Below are positions 797-56,606 of a stretch of 64,000 bases of DNA, in pieces. The translations under genes were made by a program, and so were the position numbers. Below the pieces are notes generated by a model. That model ran no database searches. It saw nothing but the letters and a program-made list of their open reading frames with translations, and had not been told where the DNA came from. Numbering within the stretch: position 1 is the first letter of the stretch; each line of letters opens with the position of its first letter. The stretch is from Lampris incognitus (lineage: Eukaryota; Chordata; Actinopteri; Lampriformes; Lampridae), in NCBI RefSeq assembly GCF_029633865.1, contig NC_079216.1:60869732-60933731 (forward strand). The letters are read 5' to 3'.

Positions 797-1166
797 TGTG
801 GCGAATTCGGGGTGGGGGGGGGGCAACCACAGGAACCGCCGCAGCCGGGACGCGAACCCGTATCGCCCGCGCCACGGGAGACGTCGCTAACCGCTCGACT
901 AAAGGGTCCGACCTGTTAGCCAACGTGCCTACTTATCCATGCACGTTATACTACCTACCCACCCACCCCCCTTTGGGTAAGCGCGTCCGCGCGTATCCCA
1001 CTTCTGACACCAATGCAGCGAATTCGGGGGGGGGGGGTAGCGTAGATCGGGACGCCGCAACCGGGACGCGAACCCGTGGCTCCCACACCGCAAGCGACAA
1101 CGTTAACCAGTCGATTAAAGGGTCCGACATCGTCTTTTGTTTCTTTCCGCCATCTTTTCCGTTACA
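797..1166 (-). mobile_element. TRIM-like element, reverse orientation, short interior
   Basis: LTRs are 797-950 and 1014-1166, reading TGTGGCGAATTC and TGCAGCGAATTC at their plus-strand left ends. Between them are a polypyrimidine stretch (951-976, the reversed polypurine tract) and a reversed primer-binding site ATCCCACTTCTGACACCA (995-1012). Most of the interior is deleted. The 5' LTR (1014-1166) keeps the tRNA-like part, but its outer 50 bases differ from other copies. No clear target duplication was found. Confidence 0.75.
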
Positions 1167-2399: not shown

Positions 2400-3220
2400 T
2401 TGTAAATGCCACGAATAGGGCCCCTGGCCTCCATAAAACCTTTCCACAGCTGCATTTTTGATCTCTAGTCTGTAATTAAATCACATTTGGCTTTCCAGGA
2501 GGGTTTATTCCGAACAGTTACATTAACATGCCATCCATCCAGCTAAGTCGGATACACATTTATAATTTACGAGGCCATTATGGCAAATTTACTTTCCTGA
2601 CTACCAGCTCGATTGCACCGTTTTTGCAACTTCCTCCAAACCACTTCTTCAAGCCACAGTTTAGACAGAGAGGGCATTTCTCCGCGCAGAGGAACGGCCG
2701 GCCCGGCTTTTCGGCAGCTTTAAATAAAACGTACCGTAAACCCCCGTCAAGTCGATGTAATATAGCTCAACCTGACCGTGCTGCATCAAATGTTGAACTA
2801 TTAGTAGGAACAAAAAAAAAAAAATTACAGACACTGTGACCTTTGAAGAGGACTGTGTTTGTCTCCTGAAACAATGTGTGCATAATTACTAACTTGGAAC
2901 CTTTGCTGAGGGGGGGATTCACGCCGTCTGAAGGTTCTGCATTAGTGCTAGTCCTCCCCTCGTGTGAAATATGAGACGAGAAAGGCAGGATGTCGGCGGC
3001 ATAAAGGGAGTGCTGAACTGACGCAATGAAAGGTGAAAGGGAAGGGGGCAGCTATTTGAGCCCCGAAACCTGAAATCATCTATTTCCTGGCTGCCTTATA
3101 AGGTCAGCCATGGGCGACAATTCCAGTATCCACCCACTTATTACTCACCCACAGAGGGAGGCCAGAGGTATGAGCAGGAGAATGGGGAAGGATGGGGGGA
3201 GGGGTTGGCCTTTTTTTTGG

Positions 3221-3261
<41 letters not shown>

Positions 3262-4053
3262 CAGGGCCCACGGCAGGGCGGGGCTCCGTTGATCTGCGTC
3301 TTATTCACTGCTGAGGATAAAGAGACGACATCTGAGCCTCAGTGTGATATCAGATATGCCGCCAGTTGGCCCCGGGGACTAACGCATCAATAGCTGTGCT
3401 ACTTTTCACAACCCCAACCTTTATGTTGCAAGAGTCTGGGGCAGGTCATTATCTGAGGACCCCCCCCCCACCCCCGCTTTCAAGAATTAACACTCCGCAA
3501 TGCGATGTTCAACACAGTCTAGACAGCAGGCGCATGTGTCAACATCCATTGTGCGTACGACTGACGCACAAGGAGAGTATAAACGTTTTCAGCCCTGCAT
3601 CTATGGCCTCCTGTATACTGTGTATGCAAGTAACATGATAATCTTGTTTGATCTGCCTCAAAGCCCGATGAACATCTCCCCCCCCCCTCTGCCTTTATCT
3701 GATCGACGTTCCGCTGCAGCGGTTGCTGAACTTCCCCCGCTCACATGCGTTGACTTGCACCTGCTCACATAGGTGGGAGCCTGTCCTCAGGTCCCCTCTG
3801 CAGACGGAGAAACCATTCTGAAGGATGTAGCGCTGCACGCTTTGAGCCCCCCCCCCCTCTCTCCCGTCTCATGCTAGCATACTTTATTCACTGCATTTCC
3901 CTCCCAGAGGCTCCGGGCCCGAGGCGTGCCCACTCGGGTAGCATTCTGGACCGTGCGCGCCCTGTGGCGGGAACCGGTGTGAATTATTTGGTCTTTGCGA
4001 GGTATGCGGAAAAAGCTACAGTTCTTTTTATACGCGGTAGCCGGAATCTGGTA
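2400..4053. other. Intergenic; AT-rich candidate regulatory island at 2400-2620, otherwise no feature
   Basis: CAGCTGCATTTTTGATCTC and CTGTAATTAAATCACATTTG have the look of vertebrate non-coding conserved DNA. The rest holds G/C homopolymers and no coding signal. Confidence 0.25.
3223..3259. repeat. (GT)n microsatellite
   Basis: About 18 GT units. Confidence 0.95.
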
Positions 4054-4061
4054 GATACAAC

Positions 4062-5340
4062 CAGGGGCGTCTCCAGGATTTGAGGACATTTGGGGCTTAG
4101 CCCAGACTTCAGTAGAGGGGTCCGGGGGGGGGGGGGGCTACTCCATCCGCCCGTTATCCAAACCGCTTATCCTGCTCTCAGGGTCGCGGGGATGCTGGAG
4201 CCTATCCCAGCAGGCATTGGGCGGCCATCACAGGGCCCCTGAATAATAATAATAATAAAAAATAGCCGTAATCCATTCATCCATTATCGGAACCGCTTAT
4301 CCTGCTCTCAGGGTCGCGGGTTCTCAGTAAAAAAAACAAAAAAATGCAAATAAAAAGACCCCGGGAAAATGTTTTTGATAAACAAGCTCTATTTTGATGC
4401 TTTTTTATACACTCTGGCACCTAATTCACATTCAAAGTACACGTCTTATCACTGAAAAAATTGAAATGTGTACCTCAAAAACTGTTGTTTACTCTCCATA
4501 TGAATTATGAATTGTGACGTTAAAAGTATTCGTAGTTGTTAGTAACGAGGATTAGTATTGAGTAGAAGCAGAATACTTCACAACTGCTGTCATTAAACAT
4601 TTACTGACATGCTGCAGTACCAGACTAGAGAAAAAAAGAAGTTAAATGTACTTATGTTAATGTTAGTTTACCGGACATATTGTAGCGAATTCGGGGGGCA
4701 GCCACAGGAACCGCCGCAGCCGGGACGCGAACCCGCATCTCCCGCACCGCGAGAGACATCGCTAACCGCTCGACTAAAGGGTCCGACCCGTTAGCCAAGG
4801 GCTACCGAGCCTATTCATCCGTGATCGTTACATTGCCCCCTTCCTTTGGGATTGGCGTCCCCGCGAATCGCCACAGCCAGGACGCGAACCTGGGGCTCCC
4901 GCTCCGCAAGCCACAACGTTAACCAGTCGACTAAAGGGTCCGACCCGTTAGCCAAGGGCTACCGAGCCTACTCATCCGTGATCGTTACATTACCCCCCTC
5001 CTTTGGGAAGACCATCCGATGGAGGGGACCGCCACACTCGGGGCGCGAACTCGTGTCTCCTGCAGCCCGGGCGACTACGTTAACCAGTCAACTAAAGGGT
5101 CTGACCCGTTAGCCAAGGGCTACCGAGCCTACTCATCCGTGATCGTTACAATATTACATTTTCTTTCACACACACACACATGCGGAGTTAGTTTCGAGAT
5201 CTGCATTTACTTTGACAGGCTGTTGTTTTGGTCGGGCTTCACATAGGCGGCTTACATTTAAAATTACATTCCGGGCCACGCTCAAAACGTTCGGGGGGGG
5301 GGGGCTTAAGCCCCGGCAAAACGACCTGGCGACGCCGATG
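4062..5340. mobile_element. Non-autonomous hAT-type DNA transposon with 8-bp target duplication
   Basis: The left end CAGGGGCGTCTCCAGG is the imperfect inverse of the right end (CCTGGCGACGCCGATG on the plus strand). GGGGCTTAGCCC and GGGCTTAAGCCCC lie just inside. Both sides carry GATACAAC (4054-4061 and 5341-5348), an 8-bp target duplication typical of hAT. The interior holds two SINE 3' fragments (about 4141-4243 and 4268-4322), the three-LTR TRIM element and no transposase. Confidence 0.8.
4681..5150 (-). mobile_element. TRIM-like element with three tandem LTRs, flanked by ATAT duplication
   Basis: There are three LTR units in reverse orientation: 4681-4832 (complete), about 4851-4989 and about 5008-5150. 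They are separated only by reversed polypurine tracts (CCCCCTTCCTTTGGG and CCCCCCTCCTTTGGG) and scraps of interior. Primer-binding sites are lost. The whole tandem is flanked by ATAT (4677-4680 and 5151-5154), so it sits at a single insertion site. It lies inside the hAT-type element 4062-5340. Confidence 0.75.
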
Positions 5341-5348
5341 GATACAAC

Positions 5349-8300
5349 ACATCATGGCCCCAACAGAAGTGGGAATGACAAAATCAACAGAAATCCACCA
5401 ACAGTTAATACGGAGAAGCAGGGCGTTACAACAACGTGGACTCAACGCCGCCGGGGTTTTGAAGGCTTTGCTTGAGAAAGACATTGCTGGACCAAAGTGT
5501 GTATCCCTTTTTATAGGTATTGCGTGGGGGTGCTGAATGTCACGGCCCAGCCGGGAGACGGAGCAGGCAGCCACGGCTCAACGGCGGCTCAACGGCACGG
5601 CTGCCGTGGAGAAGGCATGACTGCAATTGCCACAGCACAACTTGGCATATTAAAAAAAAGAAAAAGAAGAAGAAGAAGAAGAAAAGAAAAGGAAAATGGA
5701 GCAGGAGGGGCATCACAGACGGAGGGCTGACTCATATGTTGGCAGTCTCTCACCTCCCACTTGGGGAACATAAAAGAAACATACAGAGGAAACTGTACGT
5801 TAACAGCCTTGCCGTGTGAACCCACCCGACTCAGTCAGGCTGAACTCGGAACGTTTGCCGAGTGACTATTTTAAGTTACTTTCAACCCCGATTTGACTTT
5901 TTTTCTTTTTGATATCAAAATTGGTTTTTTTTTTTCCTGATTACAATACCATCGTCCTCGCTCATACACACATACCTCGCTTTCTCTTTTCCATATGCTG
6001 GTACATATTCGTTCCTGTGGGAGCACCAATGCCCCATCAGCATCATCATCATCAGCAGCACCACCATCATCATCATCATCACCCATACACCAACATGTGA
6101 GATGTTACTGACCGACACCTTGAGTCATGCAATTGCTGCGTAACTGCCACCCTACAGCTAGAAGGCTCCACTTATTATTTCATTATATATTTTTGGGTAT
6201 CGTCTGTGTCTCATAGCCTTAAAACAGCATAGGATAGCTCCCACTTATGGACTATTGCAACACTGCCTCCATGTCTGGTGTGACCGGCACTTAAGCCATC
6301 GTTGCTATATGGCCGTGATATCACGCTACCATTTCAATATGAAACAACGTTAGCTTGTACGCTGCCTGTTGACGGACTGTAGAAAGTTCCAGAAACCAAC
6401 CTATTTTCATGACAATACGTATTTATGCATGCATCTCTCTCCCCCCCCCCCTCTTTTTTTTTTGGGCCTGGCCACTCTCGATATGATCTAATAATTCCAA
6501 ATCTGATTTCCCTGTGGTTCTTAGCTAACTTGTTTTGGCCCGAGGCGCACACGAAATAGGAGGCAAGAGCGCGCAGAAGTGGGGCTACCGCTCCCCTGTG
6601 GGCCGTGGGATGGGTCTATTTGTGGAGCTATTTCGGTTTCCGTCTGTCACAGCATCCATAAAGGCTGCGCTTCCGCCACAGCACATGCGAGGGTGTAACT
6701 GGGGCACCGAGGGGGTAGAAAAGTGAAGCGACACGACGGACACAGACAGTCGCGCCTCGTCCCTGGCTTCGGGCAAGGACCAAAATCAATCAATGTAATG
6801 CAGCGTGTAGCGTTAGGAAGTGGAGCGGGCACCTAGCTGATTACACACCTGCCCCTCCCCCACCCCCACCCGCCCCACCCCCGTGCATTTGCATGGCCCT
6901 GGCGTGGCTTGGTAATTAGACGTGAATATGAGAGCCCTCCGTGGCTGCTCTCGGTCAGAGGTTCGGCAGAGAGGCGGGCTACTCGAAAGAGGCCGACTTT
7001 CCAAGCGGCCGCGCTCACCAGGGGATGGGAGAGGAGAGCCAGCCCCTCCTGAAGCGAGCGCGGATGGAGGACAGAGGAGCAGATGCCATGTGTAAAAGGA
7101 GTGGGAGGCGGATCAAGGAGCGTGCTAGTTAAGTCACAGCATGAGCACATGGAAGCCATGCTTATAATGACCGGCTTTCATCTATAGTCCACGCTGCACT
7201 CCATGTATTGTTCACGGTGCTGAAATTTCGGGGGAAACAATGCCTTATCAGGAGCGCCAACACTGCACATTGTGTAAAATGGAAGGTGTAGAACAATGAC
7301 TCACCCCCCCTCGCCTTGTTTTATTATTATTCACAAAGTCAAGCTGGCAAGGCTTCTGGCCCCGGTGAACAGGAAAAAAGAACAACGGGCTAACGTTGAT
7401 GTACAGCCAAGCTTGACCTCTCACACATATCCAGCGAGTGGGGGGGGGGGGGGTCACACTTTAACATATGTTCACCGTGTTTAGTGGGGGAGGTCAGTCC
7501 CCTCACTTGCCGGAGAACAAGACGGACCACCGGGGTAAGGAAAATAGGAAAAGCGGAGTCAAAAATCCAGACGCGGTAGACCCTCAGACAGGCAGAAGCA
7601 GTTCAAGCAAGGACGCCAGCTTTTACAACTGGATGCATAGCCGGGAGACTGTCTTCATAAATCTCCACCCTAGCATGGTGGTTTTTTTCGAAGTATGTGT
7701 GAATATGGTGTCAGCACAGTAAAAGGCCCGGGCAGCTGGAGACTGGCCTTGCCATGAACAAGTACAGCTGATTGACCAATCATGAGTAACCAGCCGGTTC
7801 ACTGTGGTCCAGCTGCCCTGAAAATAGTCCTGATAGGTCACTTTTCTGTATCGGCGATGTCCCCACGGAGCCATTACGGTTATCGTCCCTACACCAGCGT
7901 CATTCTAATCAGCGTGTCACATTTCATAGTGAACCCGGCGACCTCTGACCTCTTTCAGATGACCCCCCCCCCCCCCCAACGCTATTTGGTTCTGCAGTGA
8001 CATTTCAGCTGACCGTCCGTGGACGTTTAAGAAAACGAATTCCCCAGGAGGTCATGTCAAGACCTCACATTTCAGGATCCTCTTACGTCGTCGCAAAAAG
8101 CACCGTCGGAAGGTCAGGTCAGGTGCGGTAAGATTAGCTACGAGAGGCTCTCGTCAATACCGCCCCATAGAAAGTCAAGAGAATAAGAGGAGGCCTACTT
8201 TCCGCCCCGATGCTATGGCCTCCTGTTGTGCTCGCACGTTCCGAAATCGGTTTCACTCGTGGCAAAAATGGCAAATGAAGTCATGTACTCGATCCCTGTC

Positions 8301-30734: not shown

Positions 30735-32290
30735 TGAAGTATTCTGACTTTTTGGAGACACAGAGGAACATGTTGCACTTTATGCATCTCATAAAGGTTT
30801 TGCTTTTGCATCCTGGCATTCTGCATCTGGAAGCATTGGAATGTTGAGCATTTGGGGCAAATATGTTGCACCGTATTTCCTTAAGCTGCCATCTGAGTGG
30901 GGATTCCTTTTATTGATGTCTGGAGAGAGTTCTTCGTCACTTGAGTCAGTTTCATCTCGTTGACATACCTGTGCCTGGGATATCAGTTCTCAGCCAAGAA
31001 GAGTTTGAACTCCAGGTATTGGGAGGTTTTCTTTGCAGGTCATTGCAAGGCCTGGCTTTCTTGTCGGTATTGAATCCATGAGTTGGTGATGGCTACAGTG
31101 AAGTGGACCATGGTATGAACAGTCCACTTCTTGGTGCAGCTGGACATTCTGTAGTAGCTGAGCATGTGATCGCACCTATCACCCCCCCCCCCCCAATGTT
31201 GCTGTTATATTCCACTACCACTGCAGGTCAGGTCTTGGACTTGCTTGTTGACCTTTTTTGACCATCTGGAACAGGTGTCCTGGGGCTCAATCTCATGGAC
31301 GGTCGATACCATAACAACAGGCTTGTTGTCCACCCACTTGGTGAGTACGATTTCATGAGGTCTCCATGCAATCATTGGACATTGTCAGCAGTGAAGTGGC
31401 ACTCTTTTGGAATTCAATTCTTCTGAATTGTTCCCGTAGCAGGAAGGACCCTTTCCAGAAGAGCCTCCAGAAGCTTGATGGCAGTAAAATACCAGTCAAA
31501 GTACAGCAGTGTTCCACTGGGAATCGTCTCAGTCAAATGCAGGACTGCATTTGGACCTATTCCCATTTGCTGGTCTGGAATGAAGGTGTTCTTTCCCTGG
31601 TAGGTCTCAAAGTCCAACACAAGGCCACTTGAAGTTGCGAGAACAAACACCCTTAATCCTGTTGGATTTGGTTTGCCGGGAACATATTGACCAACTGGAC
31701 ACAGGCCTGTGAAGGGAACCATTTGTTCATCAATGCAGACCTTTGCTGGCCTTGGTAGGCTGAGGCAACCTTGGAGCACTGTCTTGAGGAGCGGTCTTAC
31801 TTTCCAAAGCAGATCCTTTTCCTTCTCATCTTCTGGCACATCCAGATCATTGACCACTTTCAGTGAAGATCTGATCTTGAAAAAACAATTTCGTGTCATG
31901 GAGTCACTTATAATCGGGATTCTTGTTTTGGCAACCCAATACATTTTCTTGGGTATCCAAGGCATGCCATGTACACTGAGAGTCCTAAAAAGGTCTTGAT
32001 CTCTTCTTGCGTTGTGTTCAAGCTGCAGCCTGAATCCTGTACCATGCGCTGGTTGGTAAAGACAGACAGATCCTGAATTAGTTGCTCATCAATGTACTGC
32101 TGGAAGTACTGCAGTGGGCTCCAGTCTCTACGGCTTAGGACAGCATCATCTGGTGTAATTCTAACATAGGCATGAACCTTAGGAGATCATCTGGTTCCGG
32201 CTCACCTGAACTTACGCCTTCTTCTGTCTCATCCTCTGATAGAGCTAAGTCTGAATCTCCCTCAGTGACTCTGTTAAGAATCCTCTGCCT
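30735..32290 (-). pseudogene. piggyBac transposase (PGBD-like) pseudogene
   Basis: The longest open piece, 31965-31414, has [20 protein letters not shown] (DEQ carries the first catalytic Asp), [20 protein letters not shown] and [12 protein letters not shown] (second Asp region). Farther on, in other frames, are [32 protein letters not shown] and a C-terminal Cys-rich finger, [20 protein letters not shown] (near 30830-30770). The N-terminal part includes [13 protein letters not shown]. Several frameshifts and stops make it non-functional. This is a DDE transposase of cut-and-paste type, related to vertebrate PGBD proteins. Confidence 0.85.
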
Positions 32291-32355: not shown

Positions 32356-32749
32356 GAGAACCGCCTCCTCCGTAACGTGAACCCGGGTCTCCCGCACCAC
32401 GGGCGACTATGTTAACCAGGTGACTAAAGGGTCTGACCCGTTAGCCAACCGGCTAACGAGTCTAGTCCTTTGTGATCTTACACTACCCCCCCCTTTGATA
32501 AGTGCATCCCCACGCTTCAGCATACCAGCTCCCTCAAGCCTTTGGGCGCATGCACTTCTGATGGCCTCACGGTCTCACAATCACACTTCTGACACCAATG
32601 TAGCGAATTCAGGGGGCAGCCGGGAACCGCCGCAGCCGGGACTCGAACATGGATCTCCCGCACCACAGGCGACTACGTTAACCAGTCAACTAAAAGGTCT
32701 GACCCGTTAGCCAACCGGCTAGCGAGTCTAGTAATTCGTGATCGTTACA
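32356..32749 (-). mobile_element. TRIM-like element, one LTR truncated, inside the piggyBac relic
   Basis: The plus-strand order is a truncated LTR (about 32356-32480), a reversed polypurine tract CTACCCCCCCCTTT, a 118-bp interior, a reversed primer-binding site ending TTCTGACACCA (to 32597), then a complete LTR (32599-32749). Interior length agrees with the copy at 40070. The outer end of the left LTR (the TGTAGCGAATTC part) is missing. Confidence 0.75.
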
Positions 32750-34663: not shown

Positions 34664-36412
34664 AATGCGCAAGAAGGCCACACCAGCTAAAGGTGCACGC
34701 AGTATCGGTGCACTCCTGGTGGTGTCTACTGTGGAAAAGGACAGAATTGCGGCAAGTGAAGCCTCGTACGTGCATCATACTGTAACGTGCATGGACAAGA
34801 AGACACGCTGGCCGCTGGTTGGCGGGTCTGACCCTTTAGTCTAGCGGTTAGCGATGCCTCCTGCGGTGCGGGCGATACGGGTTCGCTTCCCGGCCGCGGC
34901 AGTTACGGTGGTTGCGTTGTCCCCCGAATTCGCAACAATACTGTTAAACACGGACTCGGCTACAACAGCACCGACTGTCTTGTTAGACTCAGCGGTGCGT
35001 TGTTTCATGCCGTGAACCGAGATGATCACGAATGTGTTGGGACCAGAGACTGTGCGGGATCATCTGGATGGTCTGTCCCCAAATGAAGGCGAGTCTGGGG
35101 TTTATTCGGTTGCCACTGATGCCTCAAACGAGGGAGGGGGGGGGGCTGTTTCCAGTGTGCGTGAGGTATTTTTCTGTGTCTGACAGGGCGCAGTGCAAGT
35201 TACTTATGAAGACGGCGATGAAACTGCAAATGGCAGTGTACACCCAGCTCTGATGACCTGTGTGGAAAAGTGTGAACTGGATATTAAACACCTCACAACC
35301 TATGCAGCAGGTAATGCCAATGTCAACTTTGGAAAACGCCACTCCGTTTACCAGTTACTGAGCAGTGCCAACAGTCGCATTCTGCGAGCTAATTACCTGG
35401 CTCACATCTCCTAACACCTGCAGGCACGTCAGTGGATACTGAGTCACTCGTTTGAAAGATCTCCAGCCACTTCTCAGTATCTGCTCCAGAAGAGGAGCTG
35501 CGTGCATCTTGTGCCTTTGTTGACGTTGAATGGCGTGAAATTCCGCGTCACGTTTGCGCGCCGCGGTTGTCTCTTCATCCAGCTGTTGATCGTCTCCTGC
35601 ACAGCTGGCCAGCTCGCACCTCATACTTCAGGTCCCTTGGGGAGACCTGTCCCGTGGCACTGAAGAGGATTTTTGAGGACAAAGAAAGAAAAACAAAACA
35701 AAACTGGAGATGCTGAGATTTATCTGTGCTGTTTCCACAACGTGTGGCGTGTTTTTTGACACACTCGTCGGAGAGCTGGAGGAAACGACGCTCTGCATCA
35801 CAGATGTTTACGAGGAGGTAGGAAAATTCGAAGCAAAGATGCCTCAGCGGAAACCAGACAGCTTTTTGGATACCCGACCAAGCAGCTGATGGACAAACAA
35901 GTGTCCGCACAAAGATCAAAACAGCAAAAGGACTTTCTGAGGTTCTGACTCTGTCATTGCATACATTGGCAGGTGGTTTGAGCTCTCCTTCCTTGACCTG
36001 GAGCAGGTGGTGGCTGCCCTCAGAATGACAGACAGTCAGTATGGCCCAACTCTATGAAGAGTGTTGTGCTAGCAGGGAGGAAATACAGAAACCAAGACAG
36101 GATACCACAGAATCCACCAATGAGAAGTGGGTGGCAGTTTTCCAAAACATGGGGAAAGCCAACTTGATCAACATTTTCAGGATTGTCTCATTTGTCCTCG
36201 GTTGTGCCGGGCTCAGATGCCTTTTGTAGAGGGGATTTTCTCTCTGATGACCATTAAAGGGTCCGACTCAAGAAACAGATGCAGCGCAGATGATCCGAAA
36301 TGAACTTCAGATATCTGTGACTTGTCTTGTAAGGACTTTTCTCTGGCTGCACAGACGGACAAAAGACTGCTTGAATCGGTCAAGAGCAGCAAAAAATATC
36401 CATGGAAAAAGT
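34664..36412 (+). pseudogene. hAT-like transposase pseudogene
   Basis: Read across frameshifts, the order is HTVKHGLGYNSTDC (just after the solo LTR), ITNVLGPETVRDHLDGLSPN, SVATDASNEG then LFPVCVRYFSVSDR (RNase H-like fold), LTTYAAGNANVNFGKRHSVY, DVEWREIPRHVC, AVDRLLHSWPA, FRSLGETCPVALKRIFED, DSVIAYIGRWFELS and a C-terminal SDSRNRCSADD...KSSKKYPWKK resembling the hAT dimerisation region. I count at least four frame breaks plus the solo LTR (34781-34937). Family assignment is from overall motif order. It resembles fish BED/hAT-type transposases. Confidence 0.7.
34781..34937 (+). mobile_element. Solo LTR of the TRIM-like family inside the hAT relic
   Basis: A 157-bp LTR starts TGTAACGTGCATGGACAAG and ends CGAATTCGCAACA. 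It is flanked by ATAC (34777-34780 and 34938-34941). It interrupts the transposase reading frame of the surrounding hAT-like relic. The A-box TAGTCTAGCGG and B-box-like GGTTCGCTTCC are present. Confidence 0.8.
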
Positions 36413-37034: not shown

Positions 37035-40000
37035 AGGATGGTTCATCATTGATGAAACATTTACAAGTACCTGGAGTTTGTTTTTATGGACGACAGTGAG
37101 TTATGGATGATCTGGATCGGCATCATTCCTACTTGTGAACTCATCTGCGCACCGTTTTTTTCCTCTTTCCATTTCTGAGGATATATGTATGAGTTGGGGG
37201 AGGGGGGATGCTACATTAGAATCCTTGTCTTTTTTTGTCAGCATGTCTTAAGTTCAGTTTGAATATTTTTTCTGGGACCCTGAAATATCCCTGGGTCATA
37301 GCTGACTTTGACTCCTACTGATATTCCTTGCCGCGATGTCACACCATGACAACAGGCAAATTTAGCGAAAGGAAAAATCAAGACTGTGCCATTTTGCATC
37401 TCCTGTCAAGCAATCTGACTAAAAGCCCAAGTTATTTGAATGGGATCACAATTTCAGAGGCCTGTCGTTTTGAAACGTGCTCCACTTGGTATCACAAGAT
37501 GGTCATGCATTCCTGTCTCAGATTAGAGGAAGTGATTGGTGGGAGGTGCGGGGGGGGGGCTCCTTTTACCCAGACTGCATTGTTTCAGCGTTGCCGTCCC
37601 AGATTCCATCTCCCACGGCAAAGCTAATGGTCTGGACTCACGTGCACAGAGGACCTGGGCCCTGATACCATCCATGTCCAAAGGCAGTTGGCACGGCTAC
37701 TGCCTTCTGCTCGCTCTCAAAGGGGAAGTTCTTATGAATGATAGGAAGACCTGCGTCAACAGAGAGGCACCCCCTCGTAGGACTGTCTATGCAATCTGGA
37801 ACAAATTTGCACAGCAATGCGGTGATAATGGTGCTGTTTGCGAGCACGAGATGTTCAGTATAGACAGTGGCAGTATATATGCAAACTGATAGTATAATGG
37901 CATGGAAATGGATGATGGTACTGATAGTTTATGGGTTAGCAGCATTGGCATTACTTTGTCCACACATTCTGGCACAAATGTGCTGGGCCTCATCTCCACT
38001 GTACTGCTCAAATGTGATGTCAGACCTGATGGCAACAGTTACTAAAGCCATTAAGCCTGAACACTTTGATTTTTTAAAGGCTAATCCTGGTTCAATGGAG
38101 GTTGCGCTTTTGTGCAAATCACTGATGTCAGAGTTCTTTGTCTGGGCCATGTGTGGGCAAAGCTACAAAGACTAATAATCTCTGGAGGAGCAGAGATGGG
38201 AGCCTTTGTTGAGAGCGCTCAAAGGAAGGGAGGAAGAGAAAGCGGGACGAGGGAGAGAGAGAGAGAACAGGTCCATCGTTCCAGTGGCGAAGAGCCGGAA
38301 GGAATAACAAATGGAGCCTCATTCTCTCCAGCTACCCTTTCATTATAAATTGCTGTTGATTTGAGCTCCAGCTGAGTCTGAAACAACAAGGCGATGTGAT
38401 TCTGGATTAGTGTGGCGCTGCCGGTTTGCTCTGCAGCAGCAGCTAAATGTAATGTGGGTAATTTATTTCCCCTGATCAGGAGGGAGAAAAGCTCCTCTGT
38501 AATCAGAACACACGACTGAAAGGAAGCAGATTTGAGTGGAGAGGGGGGGGGGGAAACACTGCAGAAATGGACGGACACCAAAGCATATGAAGGACGGACT
38601 TGTTCCATCAAACCCGGGGAAGAACAGAATGCTTCTGATAACCACGTCACAGGTGGAGAATAAAGAGCGAATCGTGGTGCCTTCGTCCCTTCAGACCCTC
38701 TAAATCAGCTTCTGCTCTTTGGGTCAACCTTCCTCTTTGCTCTTTTGTGAGTGACAATGGAAAGTAATTTGCTCTTACCGACCCCCCCCCCTTTTAAAAA
38801 AATGTTTTGTCCACCAATTGCCAGGGCTGCTGTCATGTCAGCTGTGATATGTAGTGCAGCACCTCCATAGGAGAGTGTTAATAAGACAATCCCCGCCACA
38901 CGCTGTCATCCCAGGAAGTCGTATTAAATCTGCTTCTCTGTTGCTAAAAAGGCCGCCTCTCAATTATGCTGCAAGTTCGTTACGAGAGACGCGGGGGGAA
39001 ATTCTGTGCACGCATCGAGGGCCAGCCTGCTGCAAGACGAGGCTGCCATACATATTTTGAGCCGATGCCCGCCGAGCTAGAAACGTGCCCATTGCGTTAA
39101 TAAGATTTCTACAGTTGATCCGTTCCCATCCTAGAGAGAGTTTGGTCTCATTCGTCAGCGGGACCAGGCACTTCTAATAGACAGACCTGTGAACTCAAAA
39201 TAACCGCTGCTCATTAACGGGCGGTACGGCTGATCAGACCACCTCTGCAGGAGCAGGTAGAATCAATACTGCTGGTCAGCAGGGGGGGGGGGGTTTGCTT
39301 GTCATCCCAGCGTACAGCCGCTCGAGTCATCAATATGCCGTGGAAAGATGGACTTCTGTAGGGCGTGATACATGACTATATTTACACAACTTATCGTGTA
39401 TCAATCCCGGCCTTATTTTGTATGGATATGGAGCAATTGGTACGAGGGAAGCCTGTATCTCTTTCTGATACACTGGTCTGCAGGCTCAGGGCTCCTGTGA
39501 TGATGCCACTTAGGACATTGATCCTTCATGAACTAGTGGCCTCCGTGAAGCCTTCTGTCTCCGGCCACGTCACCATTTCCAACACGTTGTCCTCGGCTTT
39601 TTCAGGGAGGAGGGCCGTGTTCAAAGAACGCTTTTGCTTTTCTGGATTTGTATTTATTTTTTGGTAACGATATTGATTTCGAATACTTCTGCAGACCCTA
39701 TCTGAATATTTCAGATAGTGCAGGGGATTGATTGGAGAAAAGGGGCACGTATGTAGTGCACGAAAAGTCCAGCGACTTGGGTTGAATGGCCCTCCACGGA
39801 GCGCAGACGTGAATAGAGAGCGTGGGCACGACGCAGCAGCGAGAGACGGGCTAAGTGCCGCTACAGAGCAGCCTACCATGAGGCGCACGTATGGAGGCGG
39901 TGATCATTGGACGGCGCCTCACAAAAGGGAAATCATCGGGGTCAAGGAAACAGAGCAAGAGATTAAATATGTATTCTGTACCGAATGAGACGAGCTATGA

Positions 40001-40069
40001 ATAAATGAAGTAATCTGCTCAAAATGATAACAGCTGTTCAGCGCTATATCGGTACACGCTGTTAAATAG
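37035..40069. other. Intergenic; no gene seen
   Basis: Mostly unique sequence. The stretch 38400-38540, with GGTAATTTATTTCCCCTGAT and CTCCTCTGTAATCAGAAC, is AT/homeodomain-site rich and may be regulatory. No coding family was recognised. Confidence 0.3.
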
Positions 40070-40491
40070 TGTAACGTGCATGGATAAGGAGACACGCTGG
40101 CCGCTGGCTGAGGGTCTGACCCCTTTAGTCGAGCGGTTAGCGATGCTTCCTGCGGTGCGGGCGATACGGGTTCGCGTCCCGGCCGCGGCACTTTCTGTGG
40201 TTGCGTTGTCCCTCGAATTCGCTACATTGGTGTCAGAAGTGGGATGGAGCGACCGTACGGCCATCGGAAGCGCATGCGCCCTGAGGCGTGAAGGAGCTGA
40301 TATGCTTAAGCGCGGGGACGCGCTTCCCGAAGGAGGGGGGTAGTGTAACGTGCATGGATAAGAAGACACGCTGGCAGCTGGCACGCGGGCCTGACCCTGT
40401 AGTCGCGCGGTTAGCGATGTCTCCTGCGGTGCGGGTTCGCTTCCCGGCCGCGGCAGTTCCTGTGGTTGCGTCGTCCCCCGAATTCGCTACA
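40070..40491 (+). mobile_element. Miniature LTR retroelement (TRIM-like) with tRNA-like LTRs, complete copy
   Basis: LTR1 is 40070-40226 (157 bp) and LTR2 is 40344-40491 (148 bp). Both begin TGTAACGTGCATGGATAAG and end AATTCGCTACA. One base after LTR1, TGGTGTCAGAAGTGGGAT (40228-40245) fits a primer-binding site complementary to the 3' end of tRNA-Leu (one mismatch by my recall of that tRNA). The interior is 117 bp and non-coding. GAAGGAGGGGGG plus TAG (40329-40343) is a polypurine tract directly before LTR2. The flanks carry the same ATAG (40066-40069 and 40492-40495). Each LTR contains a tRNA-like stretch: in LTR1 the A-box is TAGTCGAGCGG (40126-40136) and the B-box-like sequence is GGTTCGCGTCC (40169-40179), 32 bases apart. 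The element has no ORF and must rely on an autonomous partner. Confidence 0.85.
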
Positions 40492-42013
40492 ATAGTAAAA
40501 ACTAGATGTTTAGAAACGCTTCGGTGGCAAAAGCATTTACGCATAGTGTGCATATGAACTGAAAATGCACAACTGTAGAATATCTTGCGTGAGCTTCATT
40601 TTCTATGTGTTGATATATGCCGAGATGTAGACTGAAGGTTGGTACCGTTGAGACCAATTATGCGAGCAGGGCATCGAGCCCACCCTTGTCTCACAACCAC
40701 GCACATACATCACCCGCTAATTACCTAAAAGTGTTGCTGTAACGCAGGAGTAGGACTGATACCCTTGGGCTTAATATCCCCTTGCACCAGGCACACCAGA
40801 GTTGGAAAAGGACCAACAGGGAACATTTCTGTTCATTGCGTTTGGGGACTTTCCAACTCGTGTGTGTGTGCTGGGTATGCACATCAGTGTGTTTCACACC
40901 ATAGCCCCCCCCCCCTCTGATGGGGTAGAAGAGCTCAAAAATCGTTGTCCTCACAACAGTATTTGGATGCTACATGTGTACCACTTTCAGCTATACACTT
41001 CTTTACAAAGGGGAATAATCTTGCCCCACAGACATAATGCCCCTTGCTCATAGGCGCCATGAAAATAGAAAATGCCCAAGATTTCCGGTAAGACTGGAAA
41101 ATGGGCCAATCAGGTCAAATGGAGTCTAATTTGTATAACGTGGGTGGTATGTGGCGTGCGTCCCCGTCCGTATTGAGCTGTAGTGATGTGACTCCTCCTT
41201 AAAAGACACGACCCAGGTTTTTGCTGCGTCGCACCAGAATCTGAAAACGCGTTGACTTGGAAGGCGTGACGTATCAAAAGAAGCGCGGGCGAATTTCGGC
41301 GTGAGCCTATCCTGACGGGCAACTCCCGGCAACCCCCCCCCCTTAGGCCTCTATCTCAAAGCGTGGGTCCGCAGATGTGGGGGGGGGGGGGAACAGCGGG
41401 TGGAGGGGACACCGTCGCTCAGTGACAAGTCAAGATCACAGCGGCCTAAATACGAGACCCGTCCTTCATCACGTCGCTTTTCTAAGAATAGGGGCACACT
41501 GCGCCCATGTAGGTATGAATAATGGAAGTAGCCCCCAGGAGCTCATATCTAGAGAGTGATCATCACGCTAAAGTAAGCCCTGGTGATCACACAGATAAAG
41601 TGGGCGGCTGCCATGCATGATTAATGCCCCCCCCACCCCCCACCCCCCGGTCTGTCGCCTGAGCAACACGACCTCCTGTTGTTGTCCCGCGCGCGGGGAA
41701 AGGGAGCGCTTGATATCTGCAGATATTCACGGAATATGAACTGACACCATCGGGGTCTGCGCGGTGTTATTGGAGACGCTATCTACAGCAAGAGGGTTGC
41801 CATGCTCGCTGGAACAGTGACAATACCCGTGCAGAGCACAGGGGGACGAATTCTTACAGATTGTTGCCTAGGGTACCAATGCGGGGAGCCAACTGTGCAG
41901 AAAATAATGATAAATAACTAAACACAGTTTTGTATTCCTCTCGCAGTGGCAGACGGACTCTAAACTTGCTGAAAGGAAACCCATGTCAGAACGTTTGCAC
42001 CGTGGCATGGCTG
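40492..42013. other. Intergenic; nothing recognised
   Basis: Unique sequence with poly-G/C tracts (40906-40914, 41379-41390). Confidence 0.35.
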
Positions 42014-51066: not shown

Positions 51067-52164
51067 AGGACCCGAGCTTGAGGAAGACACACACCACCTA
51101 AAAAGGGTTGAGAGGGAAATTTATATATTTAATATGTCTCACAGATTCAATGACTGCGGTGTAGAACTGAGTCAACAGCTCCTGTGGCAGGCCAAATTTC
51201 CTCAATTGCACAGAAAGAACATCCTCTGCTGGGCCTTTTTGAGGATGGAGTTGATGTTGGTCTCCCACTTCAGGTCTTTGGAAATGGTAGTTACCAGAAA
51301 CTTGAAGGCCTCCACATTTGACAAATGGCTGTTGGATATTGTGAGGGGGGCAGTGCTGAGGGGTGTCTCCTAAAGTCCACTGTCGTCTCCAAGTCTTGAG
51401 CATGTTCAGCTCCAAGTTGTTTTGACTACACCAGAGCACCAGCCACTCAACTTCCCACCGATATGAAGACTCGTCACCATCCTGGATGAGTCTGATGACC
51501 GTAGTGTTGTCTGCAAACTTCAGTTGGGTCCTTGGAGGTGCAGTCATTGGTGTAGAGGGAGAAGAGCAGTGGGGAGAGGACACATCCCTGGGAAGTTCCA
51601 CTGCTGACTGTCCATATACCAGAAGTGACTTCCCCCAGCCTCACTTGCTGTTTGCTGCCTGTCAGGAAGCTGGTGATCCACTGACAGGTGGCAGGGGAAT
51701 ACAGTGAGCTGGGAGAGTTTGGAGGGGAGGATTTCTGGAATGATGGTGTTGAACGCCAAGCTTAAGTCCACAAACACGATCCTTGCGTATGTCGCTGGGC
51801 AGTCAAGGTGCTGCAGGATGTAGTGCAGTCCCAAGTTGACTGCATCATCCACTGACCTGTTTGCCCGGTAGGCAAACTGCAGGGGGCCCAGAGGGTGTCC
51901 TGTGACATTCTTCAGGTGGGCCAACACCAGTCGTTCGAAAGTCCTCCTGACGACAGACGTCAGAGCGACAGGCCTTTGGTCCTGTGATGGAGGGTTTCTT
52001 TGGCACCACGATGACGGTGGAGTGTTTGAAGCAGGAGGGGACTTCACACAGCTCCAGGGATCTGTTGAAGATCTGCGTAATGATTGGAGCCAATTGGTAA
52101 ACAAAGGCTTTAAGACAGGATGGGGAGACAACATCTGGACCCGGTACTTTCCTGGTCTTTTACC

Positions 52165-52203
52165 CAATTTCCCCTCAGGGATTAATAAAGTGATTCTGAT
52201 TCT
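52165..52203 (+). repeat. LINE-type 3' tail fragment
   Basis: CAATTTCCCCTCAGGGATTA followed by AATAAAGTGATTCTGATTCTG is a typical teleost LINE tail, lying antisense within the LINE relic. Confidence 0.5.
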
Positions 52204-52369
52204 GTCTCTGGAAAAGCCAGCTGACATCCTCTACACGTGTCTTGAGTTCAGCCTAAGTATCAGGGGGAGGGTAAGGGAGTTGCCAGATGTGTGATGGGGG
52301 CTGTTGTCATTGGGCTGGGGTGGGTGAGGGGTGTGAATTTGTCTCTCTCAAACCTCCAATAGAAGACAT

Positions 52370-55866: not shown

Positions 55867-56606
55867 CAGAGCCAACGTTGGGAATCTCGATATGAGGAAG
55901 CTCTTTGATGCTGACAAGGACAGATTCAACAAATTCGGTACAACCTTCAAAACAGACGATGGAGACGTTCTGTTGGACAACTCCCAAGAATCTCATCGAT
56001 GAGGAAGTCATGGCCATGTTGCTCGCCATGGCCAAGTCAAGGGGAGTGGAGGAAGCCAGACAGATGTTCTCCAGCAAAAAGATCAAGTTCACTGAGGGCC
56101 ATGCTGTGCTTCACATCGCTCTTCATAACCGTTCCAACACACCTATCCATGTCGATGGCAATGATGTCATGCCAGAGGTCAACAGGGTTCTGGACAAGAT
56201 GAAGGCCTTCTGTCATAAAGTGCGCAGTGGTGAGTGGAAGAGCTTCAGTGGAAAGGCCATCACCGATGTCATCAACATCGGAGGTATCGGAGGTTCTGAC
56301 CTAGGCTCATTGATGGTGACAGGGGCCCTTAAGCCCTACTTGGAAGACAGACCCAACGTGTTGGTCGTGTCCAATATCAACGGCATTCACCTGGCTAAGA
56401 CCCTGGTTCAACTGAGCCCCGAGACAACCTTATTTATCATTGCCTCCAAGACATTCACCACTCAAGAGACCGTCACCAACGCCGAGTCCGCCAAGGATTG
56501 GTTCCTCCAGATTGCCAAAGACCAAACATTTTGTGGCGCTGTCTACCAATACACCCAAGGTGAAAGACTTTGGCCATTGACATGGACAACATGTTTGAGT
56601 TCTGAG
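55867..56606 (+). pseudogene. gpi: Glucose-6-phosphate isomerase retrocopy fragment
   Basis: An uninterrupted stretch corresponds to about residues 22-270 of glucose-6-phosphate isomerase: [84 protein letters not shown]. In vertebrates this span comes from many exons, and here it has no introns, so it is a processed copy. It is broken. A 1-nt shift near 55990 separates DVLLDNS from NLIDEEV. An extra glycine codon disrupts the [11 protein letters not shown] sugar-phosphate loop. A frame change near 56521 replaces the KHFVALSTN region. Homology stops at the MFEF equivalent with a TGA, so the C-terminal half, with its catalytic residues, is missing. It is not expected to encode an active enzyme. 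Confidence 0.9.

Follow-up and report, generated by a model that had tools for sequence, protein, structure and literature searches.

The locus at positions 40070..40491 (+ strand) of the window, the 64-kb stretch of Lampris incognitus DNA analysed here, raises the question of whether two similar units with a short spacer between them are the long terminal repeats (LTRs) of a miniature retroelement carrying an RNA polymerase III (Pol III) type promoter, as originally predicted, or a chance tandem of tRNA-derived SINEs. The layout is that of a 422-bp LTR-interior-LTR element. A 5' LTR of 157 bp (TGTAAC...GCTACA; 40070..40226, + strand) and a 3' LTR of 148 bp (TG...CA; 40344..40491, + strand) are the two direct repeats that had been seen; the 3' LTR is about 9 bp shorter, with the deficit between the anticodon-like arm and the B-box, and the pair shows 84% identity by blastn, or 90.5% over ungapped columns with three gaps. 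Because its LTRs have diverged, this copy is probably dead. The 117-bp interior (40227..40343, + strand) is non-coding, as claimed: a Pfam search of the two antisense frames that span the element found no match and no coding domain. It opens with a one-base spacer, T (40227, + strand), and an 18-nt primer-binding site (PBS) of tRNA-Leu type, TGGTGTCAGAAGTGGGAT (40228..40245, + strand), which we take to correspond to the 3' end of tRNA-Leu (CAA); the predicted position of the PBS, one base after the first repeat, is thus exact. The polypurine tract (PPT), GAAGGAGGGGGG (40329..40340, + strand), is also present but does not directly adjoin the second repeat, since TAG lies between them, as it does in 23 of the 28 sampled pairs when family B (below) is excluded. 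An exact target-site duplication (TSD), ATAG, flanks the element at 40066..40069 and 40492..40495.

The genome (1.48 Gb, 537 contigs) contains relatives of the element in the hundreds at least. A 25-mer covering the PBS and the start of the interior has 839 exact genome copies and a 27-mer from the LTR start has 2325, while backward-pattern controls of both have none; with the entire element as query, a DNA search in which the best 40 of 4097 candidates were scored gave at least 45 matches at 90-100% identity. Sixty-eight loci, chosen through the conserved 25-mer, the PBS or likeness to the window element, were fetched (2 dropped as overlapping duplicates) and yielded 92 complete LTRs and 31 LTR-interior-LTR pairs; L069 and L070, in the same sequence set, contributed neither. 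Exact 4-bp flanking duplications occur in 19 of the 31 pairs, five of which are inner array junctions (L002 twice, L025, L038 twice), against 97 of 930 mismatched left and right flanks. With family B excluded, 16 of 28 pairs have an exact TSD and all 16 read RTAN (ATAT 6, ATAC 4, GTAC 2, and ATAG, GTAG, ATAA and GTAT 1 each). Structure, copy counts and TSDs together uphold the original prediction of a gene-less miniature LTR element (TRIM).

Several LTR types occur among these relatives. Type A is that of the window, at 157 bp; A2 has an LTR of about 155 bp and an interior as in A; a further type starts with TGTAACAATCAC or TGTAACGATCAC. A short-interior sub-family has only 45-60 bp between its LTRs, little beyond the PBS and PPT. 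A 37-mer of this sub-family has 50 exact copies, and of 14 listed distances below 70 bp from PBS to LTR start, 10 are of the short-interior type and 4 belong to broken elements or to the usual type. L052, for example, pairs a 54-bp interior with an exact ATAT duplication. Family B has a 135-bp LTR, a 104-bp interior and the PBS TGGTGGCAGCGGTGGGAT, presumably that of another tRNA-Leu; a 26-mer of its PBS and interior start has 1754 exact genome matches. Families A and B have a common LTR core around the tRNA-like module and differ in LTR ends and PBS, and the score of their interior alignment is reached by 8 of 500 shuffles. All three family B pairs (L031 1789-2152, L014 2276-2652 and L061 1960-2344) have exact TSDs, AAAG, CTGG and AAAC, none of them RTAN, hinting that family B may use another integrase partner.

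These copies decide the matter of the SINE. An ordinary tRNA-derived SINE (SINE2) would share the A- and B-box module and could stand in chance tandem, as some copies here do stand in arrays; such SINEs are without LTRs, PBS or PPT and depend on LINE machinery (PMC10886601). The sampled copies are instead LTR-interior-LTR units with PBS and PPT between the repeats in copy after copy and with 4-bp duplications, and they include no A-tailed single units, LINE-like tails or longer TSDs. Together with the 839 and 1754 exact interior-start matches, this refutes the chance tandem, to which we attach virtually no probability.

A second alternative is a satellite-like tandem repeat spread by recombination, not retrotransposition. 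Arrays of the form LTR-interior-LTR-interior-LTR do occur in L002 and L038, and L039 (1527-2932) has LTR-like units at a 142-bp period. Among copies selected through the conserved 25-mer or through resemblance to the window element, moreover, LTR-LTR identity within type A elements (mean 0.957, 20 pairs) is hardly above that between copies (0.943-0.949 for LTRs; 0.966 for interiors), and L024 and L052 have exact TSDs but LTRs of different sub-families within one element. Most sampled copies are nevertheless single and dispersed, with the exact TSDs in 19 of 31 pairs, and near-equal identities within and between elements would be expected after an old burst from one or a few source copies; the mixed LTRs of L024 and L052 suggest gene conversion or recombination after insertion. 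The satellite reading is therefore very improbable. Dating by LTR-LTR divergence was dropped because within-element and between-element identities are so close. Only 1 of 32 unpaired full LTRs has its own 4-bp repeats, a count from loci picked by their interiors and so not a solo-LTR rate.

What the LTRs carry is the promoter part of a tRNA gene and not its fold. Scored against the A-box and B-box consensus, the 5' LTR has the A-box TAGTCGAGCGG (40126..40136, + strand; 8/8 informative positions) and the B-box-like GGTTCGCGTCC (40169..40179, + strand; 8/9, with C for A58), and the 3' LTR has TAGTCGCGCGG (40400..40410, + strand; 7/8) and GGTTCGCTTCC (40434..40444, + strand; 8/9), so that both boxes are in each repeat, as had been noticed. 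The joint score exceeds that of dinucleotide shuffles: it is reached by 0 of 2000 for the 5' LTR of the window, 3 of 2000 for A2, 0 of 2000 for B, 7 of 2000 for M40 (from a short-interior copy) and, more weakly, 38 of 2000 for the degraded 3' LTR of the window. Box scores are 14-16 of 17 in 88 of 91 distinct LTRs, and at most 14 in reverse complements. With equal weight on each of the four LTR types, one of which is represented by a single LTR, conservation over 11-base stretches is highest at the A-box and at the bases that surround or immediately precede it. The noted departure of the B-box from consensus is no accident of this copy: of the 25 rows of the window type and its sub-families in alignment A1, 23 have C and 2 have T at the A58 position, and 7 of 7 family B rows have A; C there is a family trait.

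Searches for a complete tRNA, by contrast with the box scores, are negative. ARAGORN finds no tRNA gene in the window; no Rfam family reaches its gathering score in the window, and with E values up to 10 there is no match from any family in 40000-40600, nor from the Rfam tRNA model in eight sampled loci. The named D, anticodon and T arms are paired in 75.2% of cells, compared to 36-58% for slid versions and a mean of 79.0 for shuffled ones. No double change occurs in these arms in the LTR alignment; in the RNAalifold consensus fold 7 of 23 pairs have double changes, six of these seven lying elsewhere than in the three arms, with a small covariation term. A functional tRNA gene is accordingly rejected, given the absence of ARAGORN and Rfam matches and of arm covariation. 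The LTR looks tRNA-derived by sequence, with promoter boxes kept and fold not kept; of the predicted tRNA-like domain the boxes and decayed D- and T-arm sequence stand, and a folding tRNA does not.

The original prediction knew of no described vertebrate family of this kind. One was described in 2024: the element is a Helenus, the tRNA-type class TRIMp3 (PMC10886601), an assignment made by described features. A literature search for Helenus with TRIM and LTR retrotransposon returned this one paper (Kojima 2024, PMC10886601) alone. According to its main text, the vertebrate range covers coelacanth, sterlet, paddlefish, Cypriniformes, Siluriformes (a catfish) and Gonorynchiformes (milkfish), with families LTR1_LCh and LTR2_LCh in coelacanth, LTR-11_DR in zebrafish, and others in sterlet and paddlefish (PMC10886601). 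Like these, the window element is a TRIM without coding capacity, its 422 bp within the Helenus range of 311-1263 bp; it has a PBS for a tRNA 3' end (Leu being among the vertebrate ones), a PPT and the 4-bp TSD of animal Helenus; and its PBS region is common to Gypsy elements (here L069 and L084), PBS similarity to Gypsy being the published link of animal Helenus to a partner (PMC10886601). A and B boxes are in both LTRs. Box B keeps GGTTC. Where box A usually reads TRGCY (PMC10886601), the window 5' LTR has TAGTC, as do 22 of the 25 rows of the window type, and 4 of 7 family B rows have TAGCC. Helenus elements too are mostly predicted to hold no functional tRNA, and high copy number and tandem arrays recur in zebrafish LTR-11_DR, with 5575 LTRs (PMC10886601). 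The short-interior sub-family differs: against its 45-60 bp, the shortest interior in the text of that paper is 85 bp (Selaginella), and no interior size is given there for the shortest element (311 bp; PMC10886601). Neither an interior of 45-60 bp nor the swapped ends described below is reported in text passages of PMC10886601, PMC7215508 and PMC3532108.

Two other TRIMs invite comparison. PbTRIM of the harvester ant likewise has a tRNA-Leu PBS and a 4-bp TSD, most often ATAT, and passages of its description mention no tRNA-like LTR module (PMC3532108). Cassandra of plants likewise combines a Pol III promoter module in a TRIM LTR with LTR-interior-LTR arrays (PMC7215508). Its promoter, however, is of 5S type, and its transcripts end within the 5S portion of the 3' LTR (PMC10886601), whereas here the module is of tRNA type and the element has hardly any T4 run. 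Rfam gives no match to the Cassandra 5S rRNA here, whether the window is searched at gathering score or 40000-40600 with E values allowed up to 10. Cassandra TSDs are of 5 bp.

We consider it likely that the window element is a Helenus-type TRIM whose transcription is started by Pol III, as its promoter boxes suggest, and that it was copied by the enzymes of a tRNA-Leu-primed Gypsy element and inserted at RTAN. Transcription by Pol III would begin in the 5' LTR, not far upstream of its A-box, and, with no T4 run in the element, would continue through the PBS, interior, PPT and whole 3' LTR into host DNA. Since the resulting RNA would hold the PBS, the PPT and a full 3' LTR, first-strand transfer of the strong-stop DNA made by the Gypsy reverse transcriptase to that 3' LTR could rebuild the short LTR segment upstream of the start site; the Gypsy integrase would then insert the copy preferentially at RTAN sites, ATAT most often. 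Runs of four or more T are in fact absent from 29 of 31 elements, as against 46% of shuffles, but this scarcity is weak evidence because the rows are related and count as one or two observations, and runs of four or more A are also scarce (absent from 27 of 31). The chief competitor is a Helenus-like TRIM transcribed by Pol II, in which the boxes, left over from a SINE that inserted into the LTR, are not used. It would suit the B-box departure at A58 in the window type and a cloverleaf decayed without compensation, and canonical TRIMs (Kojima's "TRIMp2") are taken to use Pol II (PMC10886601). It leaves unexplained why the A-box region should be the best conserved over four LTR types and why box pairs should exceed shuffles, and T4 runs are scarce, though A4 runs are scarce too; we judge it unlikely, if far from negligible. 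Pol III transcription of Helenus is stated to be unvalidated, Cassandra being the only validated Pol III TRIM (PMC10886601). The Pol III reading predicts a read-through RNA from the 5' LTR, and its confirmation would be the first for a tRNA-type TRIM as far as that paper goes (PMC10886601).

The idea that a tRNA-Leu-primed Gypsy machinery copies the element gains from two coding Gypsy elements in the same genome, L069 and L084, that share the 18-nt PBS of the window element and similar PPT/LTR junctions. The L069 Gypsy (3160-7237) has its PBS at 3692, a frame with CCHC, protease and RVT_1 domains, and the PPT junction GGGGGGGTAG followed by TGT (in longer form AAAGGGGGGGTAG followed by TGTTG); it is a recent insertion, to judge from its two 530-bp LTR copies, which are 100% identical. 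The L084 Gypsy came from a search giving 118 places, 100 of them listed, of which four of its type were fetched. Its LTRs (403-781 and 5385-5764) are 97.6% identical, and it encodes RVT_1, RNase H, integrase and SH3_Tf2-1 domains. Spacer, PBS and the next three bases are identical to those of Helenus (22 nt), and its PPT junction is AAGGAAGGGGGCAG followed by TGTGG. ATAT, the site Helenus prefers, precedes the 5' LTR in both L084 and L085; on its right flank L084 has TTAT and hence lacks an exact TSD.

The termini of L084 agree with those of Helenus A better in swapped than in straight order. Its left end matches the reverse complement of the Helenus A right end, TGTRGCGAATTC, at 11 of 12 terminal bases (L085, with TGTGACGAATTC, has one extra mismatch), and the Helenus A left end matches the Gypsy right end at 8 of 12 in the L084 5' LTR, 9 of 12 in its 3' LTR, L085 and L086, and 7 of 12 in L087. 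The swapped-order alignment scores 18 against 7 for the straight order, and 3 of 5000 end shuffles reach 18, an uncorrected p for a match noticed post hoc among two Gypsy families and two orders, with one family matching. No such match occurs in the ends of L069 or of family B. The swapped ends are a lead. They might mean that the LTR underlying the window Helenus carries its att sites the other way round from the LTR of its Gypsy partner, with the Pol III promoter core between them and PBS and PPT in their normal places, a tentative reading with the balance of probability against it. The promoter core would then occur with different sets of ends and PBS, as in families A and B. If true, the integrase would be indifferent to which end bears which att site, and swapped ends would provide an anchor for finding the partners of other TRIMp3 elements.

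Among the places read from genome searches, none is a coding element whose LTR body resembles that of Helenus. A search for a Helenus-like LTR end with the PBS gave 62 places, five of which (L071-L075) were read, four with the repeated end ATTCTCGCTACA and one with TCGTTCGCTACA; as coding partners they are rejected, since all five resemble Helenus or fragments of it, L071 weakly so (a 36-bp match). One of them, L073 (483-1149), has a Helenus-type LTR and PBS, then about 280 bp of unrelated sequence before another LTR end. For the PBS with other following bases, the first 30 of 425 places, read around the PBS, comprise short-interior Helenus, an element ERV-like by eye (with an integrase piece in L069), the L069 Gypsy and pieces. 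In L070, an LTR element with the window PBS seems to have been interrupted by another Gypsy in opposite orientation. Among 101 places from a partner search for family B, the commonest listed type (L088, L091) shares 8 terminal bases, CGGTTACA; L088 has no frame of at least 200 aa, and no partner of family B is put forward. L089 and L090, examined around the PBS, represent two further types with the family B PBS.

Helenus as a kind is already known in fishes. The analysis adds an animal genome rich in this recently described element, with several LTR types and an extremely short interior, and offers a specific element as candidate autonomous Gypsy partner of an animal Helenus; the short-interior sub-family, family B and the swapped-end Gypsy are the parts worth noting.

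The window itself contains five Helenus loci, compared with none in its shuffled and reversed versions. Besides the element at 40070..40491, these are a solo LTR of the same family (34781..34937, + strand; 91%) with ATAC on both flanks; an older LTR-interior-LTR copy (32358..32749, - strand) whose interior is 82% identical; a short-interior copy (797..1128, - strand) with PBS, few bases and PPT, its two LTRs differing much; and a three-unit tandem array of LTR core and PPT (4681..5150, - strand) with ATAT at both outer sides. The unit of this array is roughly the first 120 LTR bases plus PPT, without U5 and PBS, and its LTR starts are spaced 157-161 bp apart. Eight arbitrary 2.5-kb stretches hold one Helenus locus in total, and L069 and L070 have no Helenus sequence besides the PBS. 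If the window is typical, these counts suggest tens of thousands of Helenus loci genome-wide, with a wide error.

One region of contig C1, at about 57-87 Mb, is different. Among the listed matches the 25-mer stops at 57.1 Mb and resumes at 87.0 Mb, and the LTR 27-mer is found at two places inside (60.1 and 64.6 Mb); other PBS-bearing elements lie in the same block at 66.8, 82.4 and 83.8 Mb. Helenus seems depleted in this large, perhaps heterochromatic, block.

Three features of other kinds also stand out in the window. A transposase remnant at 31414-32085 (- strand) matches DDE_Tnp_1_7 (E 4.9e-26) and is presumably piggyBac-like. A reverse-transcriptase fragment at 51544-52230 (- strand; RVT_1, E 3.5e-8) is LINE-like by eye. 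An unbroken frame at 55953-56561 (+ strand) matches residues 55-236 of glucose-6-phosphate isomerase and has the look of a single exon or of a processed, intronless copy.
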